In this document: piece by piece, positions 45,074-49,424 of the stretch
Layout of the letters: each line of letters begins with the position of its first letter
How positions within the stretch are numbered: the first letter of the stretch is position 1
Source: an uncultured Pelagibacteraceae bacterium
GTDB taxonomy: Bacteria; Pseudomonadota; Alphaproteobacteria; Pelagibacterales; Pelagibacteraceae
DNA length: 64,000 bases
Direction: 5' to 3'
Assembly (NCBI GenBank): GCA_902560855.1
Contig: CACENJ010000001.1
Coordinates: 1-64,000 of the forward strand
The notes under the pieces: generated by a model
What the model was told of the DNA's origin: nothing
The model's input: only the letters and a program-made list of their open reading frames with translations
Databases searched by the model: none
Translations under genes and position numbers: made by a program

Positions 45074-45235
45074 GTTATGCTGATAGATTTAAATTAATAT
45101 TTTATAAACATATTTTTATTAATACAACTAGAAGTTTAATTGTATAATATTTAGTTAGTTTTTCCTAATAAATACATATTTTTGATGTTTGACTAGTTAC
45201 CATTTTAAATAATAGAATAATCTTTAGAGGGGTAA

Positions 45236-45913
45236 ATGAGTATAAGAAACTTTGCAAAATTTTTTACAGTTTTATTAGCTGTGTTTTTGCTGACAACCAC
45301 ATTTTCTGACGCAGCAAAAAAGAAAAAGAAAAAAGAAAAAGACTGCATTTATTGCCAAAAGTATGAAAAAATGAAAGATTGGCCTGAGAGCGAAAGGCCA
45401 GCAGCATTTATTTGGGAGGATATAAAATATCCTGAAGGAATGTTTCTACCTACATCTGACACTCCAAAGAAAAAGCAAGGTGAAGCAGGAGGAAAAGTTT
45501 ATGCAAGATTTGTTAAAGGAAAAGGGTCTTTAAACAAATATCAGCATTTAATGATAAGAGATATGGCTTACTTTGAAGCATTATTTAACGAAATGCTAAA
45601 AGATAAAAGAGCAAAAGTTGAAACATTAGAAGGACTAAAAAAGGGTAGAGAAGCAATGAGAATGAGCCTTCAAATATCTCCTAAAGCAAAAACTTCCGAA
45701 GCAGTATTAAAGTTTTGGGCAACTGGAAAGATGTTAAAAGCTGCATGGAAACAGAACAAAAAGAAAAAGAAAAAGAAATCAAAAATAGACCCCGAAATTG
45801 CAGAACGAGCGGCAGTACTTGCAAATATGAAAAAACAAATTGCTTTAGCAAAAGTTAATGCACAAAGAGCAGCTACAATTGAGGCTCAAAAACAAATAGA
45901 ACAAACTCAATAA
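45236..45913 (+). CDS. Secreted Lys-rich hypothetical protein with CxxC
   Basis: Signal-like N-terminus; DAAKKKKKKEKDCIYCQKY; coupled to next gene (TAATG overlap). Confidence 0.75.
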   Translation: MSIRNFAKFFTVLLAVFLLTTTFSDAAKKKKKKEKDCIYCQKYEKMKDWPESERPAAFIWEDIKYPEGMFLPTSDTPKKKQGEAGGKVYARFVKGKGSLNKYQHLMIRDMAYFEALFNEMLKDKRAKVETLEGLKKGREAMRMSLQISPKAKTSEAVLKFWATGKMLKAAWKQNKKKKKKKSKIDPEIAERAAVLANMKKQIALAKVNAQRAATIEAQKQIEQTQ

Positions 45914-48408
45914 TGATAAAAAAAATTTTAATTAAAACTGCATTTATACTCTTTTTGATATCAAACACATTTGCTAATGCAAATGATGTTGCTGGATTAG
46001 CAGGTGTTTCCGAAGCAGCAGGAAATTCGGCTCAAGCTGCAGCTGACCAATTAGCAAGTGATGCGGGTAAAGTTACCGAAAATTTAGAAGCCGCTACTGA
46101 AGCTTTAGGAGAAGCAAAATCTGATATTGGTAAAGCATTAGACACATCAATTGCTCAAGCAGAAACAGCTATGGCATTTGCACAAGAAAGTTTAGCTAAA
46201 GGAGATATAACATCAGCAGTTCAGGCCATGACATTGGTTGAAGGTGTTACAGATATGGCATTAGGTGCGGTGCCCGACCCAACTGCATTGGATATGTCAG
46301 ATATGGATTTTGGAAAAGATTTTTCACCGGAAGAAATGGCAGCTCTATCAAGTATAGCAGGAACAATGGGAGCTGGAAAAGTTGTTGCTATGCAAAAACT
46401 TGCTGGATCAATGAATGCAGTAGAAGGAGCAGGTTTTGATGCAAAAGGAATGATGGGAGCATTAGATGCTAATGGCATTGGAATTGGATCAGCTATGGAA
46501 GGCTTAGCAGATGCAGGTATGGTTGATTTGGGAGCTGTTATGGGAACAGAGACATTCGATATGGGAGCCTTTGATGCAGGTAGCTTTGCATCTATGAATG
46601 TTGCAGAAATGGGGATGAACCCAGCAATGATGGCAGGAGCTTTAGAAGCTTTACCAGTTGGAGCAGCTACAGCTGCATTAGAAACTTTAACTTCAGATCC
46701 AGGTGCAATGGGTGAGATGGCTGGAGCAATGACCGGTGCAATAGGTGCAACTATGATGGCAAAAGGTATGGGCGCAGAAATGATGGATGCTATGGGAGCC
46801 TCAATGGGAATGGAAGGTATGTCAGGAATGGCTGAAGGTATGCAAGGATTAGAAGGTATGGAAGCACTTGGAGAAGCAATGGGTGGAATGGCAACTATGG
46901 CTGCAAGTTTAAGTGAAGCATTTGGAGATCCTTCAACAGGAATTACTGCATCAATGTCAGGAACGGTTGGAATGATTAGTGGAGCTATTTCAGGAAAAGC
47001 TCCTAAAGAAAAAACTGCTATAGCAATGGGGATGGAATCAAAAGATTCAGCAGCAGCTTTAATGGCTGATGAAGGACCAGAAGCAATCGAAATGCCAGAA
47101 AATGTTAGTGAATCAGGAATGATGATGGGAGCCATGGTTATGGCAAAACCTTCATTAGCAGGCGGGTTACCAGGCGCTATGGCACCACCAGAAGGTATGA
47201 CAGCTATGGGAATGGAAGCAGCAGGAGCAATAGGTGCTGATGCTGGAGTTGGAATGGCTGGTATGGCCGATGTTATGGGAGGTGCAATGGATGCAGACCA
47301 AATGGGAGAACATATGGCAGCAATGACTGGTATGGATGCTGGAGCAATGGATCAATTAGGAATGGCAGAAATGGCAGCTCAAACAGGTTTAACACCAGGA
47401 ATGGTAGCTAGCATGGGAGCTGCAGGAATGGCAGGAATGGATGTAACATCTGTTATGTCTACTGAAATGGCAGGACTAGGAAGTGAAGCAATTCAAGGTA
47501 TGGCTGCTATGGCAGCTGAAGGAGCAATGCCAGCTTCTATGATGGGCGATATGATGGAAACAGGTTTAGTTAACCAAGGCACAATGGCGGCAATGGGAGC
47601 AACAGGTATGGAAGGTTTAAGTGAAGCCATGGGTATGGAAGGTGGCGACATGGGTTTAGCAGCAATGAGTGGTGGAATGGTTGGAATGGGAAAAATGGAT
47701 ATGGATGCAGAAATGAATCCTGAAATGGCTGAAGCCATGGGGGTATCAGGAGGACCTGAAGGAGCTAAACTAGGAGATATTATGGGAGCTGGAGGACCTG
47801 AAGGCGGAATGGAAGGCATGGAGGGTATGGAAGGAATGGAAGCAGGAATGGAATCCGGAATGAATTTAGGACAAGTGTCAGCAGCAATGGGCACAGGTTT
47901 AGACCCAGGTGCAGCAATGGGCTCAGTTGCAAAAGCAGCAGGTGCAGCTTCTGAAGCAGGATCAGGATTAGCAGGCGCAGCAATGGGATCAGCAATGTCT
48001 GCTCAAGGTGCAGCAGCTTCTGCAATGGGATCAGGTGCAATGGGCGCAGCAATGGGAGCTGGTGGCATGGGTGATGGTGCTATGGGCAAAGCTATGGGCG
48101 GCGCAATGCAAGAAGGTATGGGCGGCGCAATGGGCGGCGCTATGGCAGGTGCTATGGCAGGTCAAGCAGGCGGCATGGGCGGCATGGGCGGCATGATGGG
48201 CGAAGGCGGCATGATGGGCGAAGGCGGCATGGGCGGTATGATGGGCGGTCAAGGTGGTTTTGGTGGGCTTGGTGGCGAAGGCGGCATGTTCGGCGAAGGC
48301 GGTATGATGGGCGAAGGTGGACCAGGATTTGGCGGCGAAGGTGGCCCTGGAGGACCAGGAGGACCAGAAGGACCAGGTGGACCTGACCCAGGTGGAAATC
48401 CTCCGTAA
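45913..48408 (+). CDS. Secreted 831-aa Met/Ala/Gly-rich acidic repeat protein
   Basis: Signal-like MIKKILIKTAFILFLISNTFANA; hundreds of residues of AMG/GMxGMxE-type repeats; collagen-like GGPGGPGGPEGPGGPDPGG end; no Cys/Arg/Trp/Tyr seen. Confidence 0.8.
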   Translation: MIKKILIKTAFILFLISNTFANANDVAGLAGVSEAAGNSAQAAADQLASDAGKVTENLEAATEALGEAKSDIGKALDTSIAQAETAMAFAQESLAKGDITSAVQAMTLVEGVTDMALGAVPDPTALDMSDMDFGKDFSPEEMAALSSIAGTMGAGKVVAMQKLAGSMNAVEGAGFDAKGMMGALDANGIGIGSAMEGLADAGMVDLGAVMGTETFDMGAFDAGSFASMNVAEMGMNPAMMAGALEALPVGAATAALETLTSDPGAMGEMAGAMTGAIGATMMAKGMGAEMMDAMGASMGMEGMSGMAEGMQGLEGMEALGEAMGGMATMAASLSEAFGDPSTGITASMSGTVGMISGAISGKAPKEKTAIAMGMESKDSAAALMADEGPEAIEMPENVSESGMMMGAMVMAKPSLAGGLPGAMAPPEGMTAMGMEAAGAIGADAGVGMAGMADVMGGAMDADQMGEHMAAMTGMDAGAMDQLGMAEMAAQTGLTPGMVASMGAAGMAGMDVTSVMSTEMAGLGSEAIQGMAAMAAEGAMPASMMGDMMETGLVNQGTMAAMGATGMEGLSEAMGMEGGDMGLAAMSGGMVGMGKMDMDAEMNPEMAEAMGVSGGPEGAKLGDIMGAGGPEGGMEGMEGMEGMEAGMESGMNLGQVSAAMGTGLDPGAAMGSVAKAAGAASEAGSGLAGAAMGSAMSAQGAAASAMGSGAMGAAMGAGGMGDGAMGKAMGGAMQEGMGGAMGGAMAGAMAGQAGGMGGMGGMMGEGGMMGEGGMGGMMGGQGGFGGLGGEGGMFGEGGMMGEGGPGFGGEGGPGGPGGPEGPGGPDPGGNPP
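48020..48400 (+). repeat. GGC-rich short tandem repeats within the 3' end of the Met/Gly-rich gene
   Basis: Repeated units such as GGCGGCATGATGGGCGAA and GGCGGCATGGGC, in strong GC contrast to surrounding DNA. Confidence 0.8.
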
Positions 48409-48428: not shown

Positions 48429-49424
48429 TTAACTATTCCAAAAAGGACATTCGCTTTTAGCGAATAAGTATTTTTTTATATTATCGTTTAACTTTAGTGT
48501 AGTTATAGACATTCCTGCCATCTCCATGGAAGTTGCATATCTTCCAACATAAGATTTAAGATTATTTATTTTTGAATTAGTTAAATTTTCATTAACTCTT
48601 TTAGATATTATATATAACTCTTCTAACGGAGTAGCTCCTAAACTATTAATCATTACAGTAATATTATCATTAGCAGTTAATTTTGAGTCATTAATTATCC
48701 TTTTATAAAGATCATCAACTAAGTCGTTTGCAGGCTTTAGTTTTTCTCTTTTTATTCCTGGTTCACCATGAATACCCATGCCAATTTCTATTTCATCATC
48801 ACTTATTTCAAAAGTAGGTTTTCCAGCTTCGGGTAAAATACAAGGAGATAAAGCAACACCAAGAGTTCTGATATTATTATTTACTTCTGAAGCTAAATTA
48901 AAAACATCATCTAAAGATGCACCAGTTTCAGCAATTGCACCAGCGGTTTTAAATACAAAAATCATTCCTGCAATTCCTCTTCTTTTAGATTTTTCTTTTT
49001 CACTAGCACTTGCAATATCATCAGCAACTATTACTTTTTTTGTTTTAATTCCCTCAGCTTCAGCCATTTCACAAGCCATTTCAAAATTCATTACATCGCC
49101 ACCATAATTTCCAATAATACATAAAACACCATTGCCATTATCAGCGTTTTTTATAGCTGATATCATTTGTTCCACGGAAGGTGATGCAAATACAGAACCT
49201 ATAGCGCATGCATCTAAAAATCCTTTTCCTAAATAACCAGTAAAAACTGGTAAATGTCCTGACCCTCCACCAGTAACTATACCAACTTTATTTGTAGCTT
49301 TTGTAGTCCTTGTAATTACTCTTTTATTATCTTTTGCGAAAGCATAGATTTCAGGGTGAGATTTAACTAATCCGTCTATAGATTCTTCAACAAAGTCACT
49401 TGCTTTATTAATTATCTTTTTCAT
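48429..49424 (-). CDS. dhaK: Dihydroxyacetone kinase subunit DhaK
   Basis: GIVTGGGSGHLPVFTGYLGKGFLDACAIGSVFASPS; IGNYGGDVMNFEMACEMAE; GMGIHGEPG. Confidence 0.93.
   Translation of the reverse strand: MKKIINKASDFVEESIDGLVKSHPEIYAFAKDNKRVITRTTKATNKVGIVTGGGSGHLPVFTGYLGKGFLDACAIGSVFASPSVEQMISAIKNADNGNGVLCIIGNYGGDVMNFEMACEMAEAEGIKTKKVIVADDIASASEKEKSKRRGIAGMIFVFKTAGAIAETGASLDDVFNLASEVNNNIRTLGVALSPCILPEAGKPTFEISDDEIEIGMGIHGEPGIKREKLKPANDLVDDLYKRIINDSKLTANDNITVMINSLGATPLEELYIISKRVNENLTNSKINNLKSYVGRYATSMEMAGMSITTLKLNDNIKKYLFAKSECPFWNS

Follow-up and report, generated by a model that had tools for sequence, protein, structure and literature searches.

Few cell types on Earth are as abundant as SAR11 bacteria, whose surface biology is poorly known. 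The window analysed here, a stretch of 64,000 nucleotides from an uncultured Pelagibacteraceae bacterium (contig CACENJ010000001.1; genome assembly of 1.05 Mb, 75% complete), contains two overlapping genes, hereafter p1 and p2, which raise the question of why such a cell would make a long, putatively exported protein dominated by Met, Ala and Gly, and why this protein is encoded directly behind a strongly basic partner. The features of the locus are the following.

45226..45232 (+): Shine-Dalgarno-like, purine-rich AGAGGGG ahead of p1 (sequence reading)
45236..45913 (+): p1, basic, putatively exported protein of 225 aa (ORF list; homologues in 34 of 398 genomes of the order)
45236..45313 (+): putative p1 signal peptide MSIRNFAKFFTVLLAVFLLTTTFSDA (by inspection)
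45344..45355 (+): CxxC motif of p1 (C37, C40), restricted to subfamilies I and II (alignment)
45485..45745 (+): p1 helical core common to all subfamilies, M110, F113/E114, R138, M141 region (alignment)
45758..45784 (+): p1 Lys tract, placed by alignment at strand 261-264 of the fused homologue's model
45910..45915 (+): stop/start overlap TAATG, p1 and p2 sharing 1 nt (sequence reading)
45913..48408 (+): p2, acidic, putatively exported, Met/Ala/Gly-rich protein of 831 aa (ORF list; homologue alignment)
45913..45981 (+): putative p2 signal peptide MIKKILIKTAFILFLISNTFANA (by inspection)
45982..46512 (+): p2 N-terminal helical domain, kept throughout the subfamilies; in 11 loci part of a fusion with p1 (alignment)
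46513..48192 (+): Met/Ala/Gly-rich tail of p2; its homologue in subfamily II is a tail of ordinary composition (hhalign)
48193..48405 (+): Gly/Pro-rich C-terminal end of p2, length-variable and the least conserved part (dN/dS 0.275, the highest)
48449..48465 (+): terminator-like hairpin 3' of p2 (scan at chance level)

The coordinates, lengths and TAATG overlap given for the two genes in the initial annotation proved exact on re-reading, and its description of a basic and an acidic protein with signal-like N-termini was borne out: p1 has a pI of 10.0 and a mature net charge of +25, and p2 a pI of 4.05 and a mature net charge of -81. By inspection, putative Sec cleavage sites lie between TTTFSDA and AKKK in p1 and between SNTFANA and NDVAG in p2, and the signal-like N-termini are retained in the homologues. 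As had been claimed, Met, Ala and Gly dominate p2 (126, 160 and 184 residues, respectively), which has a single His and no Cys, Arg, Trp or Tyr at all; its 18 close homologues contain 0-2 Arg and 0-1 Tyr and uniformly lack Cys and Trp. The label of repeat protein applies to only part of the chain, because short tandem arrays (units of 9-36 nt) are found mainly in its last ~100 codons and most of the remainder is non-repetitive. The GC content of the p2 gene is raised by amino-acid choice, since third positions are AT-rich (GC3 without Met, 0.136), on which ground a recent foreign origin, as a high GC content might suggest, was rejected. The genes around the pair are of ordinary metabolism (PTA_PTB, Ldh_2, Dak1 and an epoxide hydrolase-like protein); no linked barrel gene was recognised among neighbours of the pair, no outer-membrane export partner was found, and promoter and terminator scans around the pair gave results at chance level only.

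Profile searches of 398 sampled genomes of the order (SAR11) found p1 in 33 genomes, 34 after iteration, and the p2 N-domain in 33, and no match was obtained in ~294 other genomes of the class. The pair is a patchy accessory unit present at several different chromosomal sites and, being confined to 8.5% of the sampled order genomes, cannot be called a general adaptation of SAR11. With duplicates set aside, p2 comes immediately after p1, on the same strand, in 34 loci (the window among them), the spacing in split homologues being -41 to +5 nt with one exception of 204 nt, and in 11 further loci the two are joined in a single ORF. Only a fragment at a contig end and an additional p1 copy in locus L105 depart from this pairing; behind the weakest p1 match, in genome G428, an overlapping ORF for a putatively secreted 349-aa protein comes next. 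In every split locus p1 is positively (+12 to +53) and p2 negatively (-22 to -113) charged, a comparison outside which we left the 343-aa entry L123, a spurious profile match without p1. Hence, both the coupling and the opposite charge that had been noticed in the window are conserved. The outcomes that had been named as speaking against such a unit were not encountered: homologues exist and are adjacent (34 loci), N-termini inspected for export signals look signal-like, and in relatives the p2 ORF is full-length, with 68-74% identity. Pfam, NCBIfam and PHROGs contain no domain matching p1 or p2 of the window, in agreement with the earlier remark that no named family was known. The pair is real, conserved and unnamed. 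A tblastn search of 50,697 phage records gave no match, by which a phage origin was rejected, and a search in plasmids gave none either. The N-terminus of one fused homologue (L024) resembles SHOCT (PF09851; E 8.7e-5), which is only a short segment; the best score, 22.6 bits and in L024 only, is below the Pfam gathering score of 27 bits, and Pfam finds no SHOCT in p1 of the window.

What might the two proteins build together? An AF2 model of a natural p1-p2 fusion, based on an alignment of 48 relatives, reaches an overall pLDDT of 78, with values above 90 for most of residues 120-450, a region that covers the p1 core (45485..45745 in the window) and the p2 N-domain. Two four-residue strands, one in the p1 half (261-264) and one in the p2 half (386-389), are the only isolated strands of equal length in the model and each other's best candidate partners, in an apparent pairing across the two halves. 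By alignment, the first of these corresponds to the p1 Lys tract and the second to the best-conserved motif of p2 (P121...D127 M128), in which D127 is invariant and P121 and M128 are near-invariant. The interface between p1 and the p2 N-domain is a prediction from the AF2 model; modelling of p2 alone was uninformative (pLDDT 36). A Foldseek search with the fusion model (E <= 1e-3) returned 0 matches in PDB and 0 in BFVD, and as modelled the fusion matches no solved or viral fold. The fusions, together with the predicted joint module, make the envelope or exported complex envisaged in the initial annotation likely. The p1 protein and the first ~180 residues of mature p2 would form a compact helical anchor or adaptor module, and the two genes would encode one exported structural unit.

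Past the shared N-domain, p2 proteins have several kinds of tail. Subfamily I (767-852 aa), to which p2 of the window belongs, has the Met/Ala/Gly-rich tail and subfamily II (736-764 aa) a tail of ordinary composition; other proteins have a long coiled coil (1424-1648 aa), another kind of tail (1138-1139 aa) or, in L109, short decapeptide-type repeats (L109:6870-8699, GFSDAEIRDxVYAAGEIDTPTLTGTW..., Pfam Decapeptide E 3.7e-22). For a 1482-aa homologue, a tape-measure identity was rejected, its weak coiled-coil matches being taken as generic coiled coil. The fused form ends in a YxSFADAVAAYNAQHGTNYT-type domain; the conserved C-terminus YxSFADAVAAYNAQHGTNYTVEEAREALGQ is present in L024, L099, L101, L104, L107, L114, L116, L118, L120 and L121, and when looked for in eight genomes it was found in three, where it is confined to fusions. 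The anatomy of the unit is therefore that of a constant base with an exchangeable stalk, and the rest of p2 would be a replaceable stalk or tail on the p1/p2 module, held in or on the envelope. A conserved base bearing a variable coiled-coil or low-complexity stalk is also found in trimeric autotransporters; unlike in these, the base of p1/p2 is a two-protein helical module as predicted by AF2, neither a YadA-type anchor nor Hep_Hag repeats were found by Pfam, and Pfam, NCBIfam and PHROG searches with p1 and p2 of the window found no YadA anchor, TPS domain or beta-barrel partner.

The sequence of the Met-rich tail is under strong constraint. The dN/dS is 0.15-0.18 in most p2 segments, reaching its maximum only in the Gly/Pro-rich end, and 0.10 in p1, so that, as judged from sequence comparison, the Met-rich chain is under purifying selection, and the observation goes far beyond chance. 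Of the 126 Met positions in p2 of the window, 61 are invariant in 16 homologues, and the variable Met columns of the 18 close homologues change mostly to Ile (68), Leu (45) or Val (21). The tails of subfamilies I and II are homologous (hhalign probability 100%, 37% identity over 609 columns), subfamily II being a full-length homologue with about 3% Met. At 107 Met columns of subfamily I, subfamily II has Ile (30), Leu (28), Met (16) or Val (13), which is 71 for Ile, Leu and Val together, and Ser, Asn, Glu, Lys or Thr stand in subfamily II at many Ala/Gly columns of subfamily I. Since Met makes up 9.1% of the shared N-domain in subfamily I, against 3.4% in subfamily II and 2.5% in the remaining proteins, the enrichment in Met is derived in subfamily I.

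The composition of p2 is equally extreme in terms of chemical elements. In a set of 605 ORFs from the fetched loci, we counted the side-chain atoms per residue: p2 of the window has 1.90 C, 0.065 N and 0.152 S, the medians being 3.15, 0.347 and 0.034, respectively. Its N content is the lowest of the set, where other members of subfamily I also occupy the bottom ranks; its C content is at the 0.17th and its S content at the 99.8th percentile, the latter exceeded only by fellow members. The view that an exoprotein of this length is costly thus holds for sulfur, in which p2 is the dearest, and fails for nitrogen, in which it is the cheapest ORF examined per residue, and very nearly for carbon. 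In the shared N-domain, the side-chain N content is graded (0.114 in subfamily I, 0.204 in II and 0.261 in the others). In its low side-chain N and C relative to the proteome, p2 resembles cost-minimised extracellular proteins, a concept reportedly described by Smith & Chapman in 2010 (cited in PMC3506625), with a flagellin- or curli-like composition. These are exported, as p2 putatively is, poor in Cys, Trp, Tyr and Arg, and rich in Gly and Ala; p2 differs by its 15% of Met, a costly residue, by having no sequence relation to them, and by being extreme even among the ORFs of its own clade.

We tentatively favour, at somewhat short of an even balance of belief, the explanation that p2 is an abundant exported helical structural protein that is tethered by p1 and has been rebuilt to spare nitrogen and carbon. 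Here, we infer export, the structural role, abundance, and nutrient economy as the cause. The tail of subfamily I would be an ordinary helical tail with remodelled side chains, in which Arg, His, Trp, Asn, Lys and Gln were reduced or removed, Ser, Asn, Thr and Lys were replaced by Ala and Gly, and Ile, Leu and Val by Met. Such remodelling would spare N and C in an exported protein made in large amounts, at a price in sulfur that SAR11 may pay with sulfur from DMSP. SAR11 bacteria lack assimilatory sulfate reduction and use organosulfur such as DMSP (PMC5069961), and reduced sulfur has been speculated to be "rarely limiting" for them (PMC5069961). It should be noted that Val saves carbon without spending sulfur, and the choice of Met therefore needs an additional argument, namely, that Met may be preferred as a helix-compatible aliphatic substitute. 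This is because Met packs like Leu and favours the helix. Codon usage gave no usable bias regarding abundance, as highly expressed genes are not separated in the genome of the window. To a broader idea we give slightly less weight: one SAR11 lineage may have stripped an entire exported helical protein of side chains that contain nitrogen or much carbon and put Met in place of Ile, Leu and Val, trading N and C for S at the scale of a whole protein, on a previously unknown two-protein envelope module.

Several other explanations have to be weighed against this one. The initial annotation had put forward p2 as a polymer whose Met thioethers act as a sacrificial antioxidant or bind Cu(I), and on this reading the thioethers would be regenerated by periplasmic Met-sulfoxide reductases. 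The Met content, derived in subfamily I, and the putative export of the protein fit this idea, and links between Met-rich periplasmic proteins and stress by reactive chlorine or copper are known from other bacteria; CusF and MrpX, of this kind, are likewise exported and Met-rich. However, p2 is far larger than these, with almost no His; its Met positions are conserved, nearly half of them being invariant in the homologues compared, Met is replaced almost only by Ile, Leu or Val at the positions where it varies, and the sister protein dispenses with all but 3% of it. A full-length sister subfamily with so little Met, and aliphatic residues at the Met positions, argue against a purely chemical role of Met, so that Met does not appear to be kept in p2 for thioether chemistry as it is in redox or Cu-binding periplasmic proteins; the depletion of Arg, His, Trp, Lys, Asn and Gln is also left unexplained, and p2 has one His and no Cys. 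We consider this explanation unlikely as the main driver, although thioether chemistry may be an added benefit. The related proposal that p2 is a periplasmic reservoir of Met or reduced sulfur in a cell that does not reduce sulfate draws on the top-ranking S content of p2 and on the dependence of SAR11 on organosulfur (PMC5069961); it is very improbable in view of the position-specific conservation and the full-length homology to a low-Met protein, and an Rfam search at the pair of the window gave no match, to a SAM riboswitch or otherwise.

Two further explanations concern the cell surface. The protein could be a sticky coat resisting proteases or grazers, as it offers few sites for trypsin and chymotrypsin because Lys is scarce, Arg absent and Phe the sole aromatic residue. 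Trypsin would produce 18 peptides, the longest of 217 aa, the tails differ greatly among subfamilies, and pressure from the niche or from predators is suggested by the patchiness of the genomic sites. Given that Met, Ala and Leu sites are still open to other proteases and that the replacement of Ile, Leu and Val by Met is left unexplained, we regard this as no likelier than the thioether polymer. A ligand-capturing or polysaccharide-related surface complex, which would work with a putatively secreted, glycosidase-like protein of ~340 aa that is often encoded next to the pair, seems slightly less probable again. Of 14 subfamily-I genomes tested, 13 have the gene for this protein, which adjoins the pair in 11; it also occurs in 3 of 18 genomes that have other pairs and in 0 of 20 without a pair. 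These counts are confounded by the relatedness of the genomes. The product of the gene is weakly similar to glucosidase and xylanase chains, with a PDB E-value of only 0.01. In the genome of the window, it lies elsewhere, inside an ABC-transporter cluster (G000:C3:47483-48478) and unlinked to the pair, and it is absent in G311; an obligate partnership was rejected on these grounds. One example of the gene is L021:11035-12069, and in G103 it is split into two reading frames.

A separate observation concerns the start of p1, which in the window is a normal ATG. In nine relatives (L028 (=L019), L020, L090 and L093-L098), the p1 frame begins directly behind a TAG and has no ATG, GTG or TTG ahead of the conserved signal peptide core, so that making the exported protein would require a programmed +1 frameshift or else an unusual start codon, which makes these loci candidates for such an event. 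An almost invariant element, ATGAAAGGTTTAGCCAGG, provides an ATG in another frame, always one base off, which would place the translation start about six codons ahead of the frame change, with the TAG inside the element. When eight of these genomes were scanned in full with two mismatches allowed, each contained this site once, and G357 had an additional site with two mismatches. In none of the nine is the p1 frame interrupted by a stop, unlike the other two frames, and codons 35-75 of p1 are under strong constraint (pN/pS 0.146). A reading of the conserved 5' element as a riboswitch was rejected, as there is no Rfam match there. Elsewhere in one of these loci, in SAR11 genome G187, an Rfam match to the 5' ureB sRNA (L028:15705-15978, minus strand, E 5.9e-24) lies antisense to the urease alpha gene and is possibly only conserved coding sequence.

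In p2 of the window, only seven tryptic peptides have a length of 7-30 aa and five of these lie in the N-domain; thus, metaproteomic surveys that use trypsin would see little of the tail, a possible part of the reason why a protein of this kind escapes notice. If the explanation that we favour is true, the pair will provide a searchable exported protein unit for SAR11, and subfamilies I and II a natural matched pair, the same protein with ordinary and with remodelled composition, in which elemental selection can be tested on a single protein. The export of side chains low in nitrogen and rich in sulfur would then supply seawater with sulfur-rich, nitrogen-poor organic matter.
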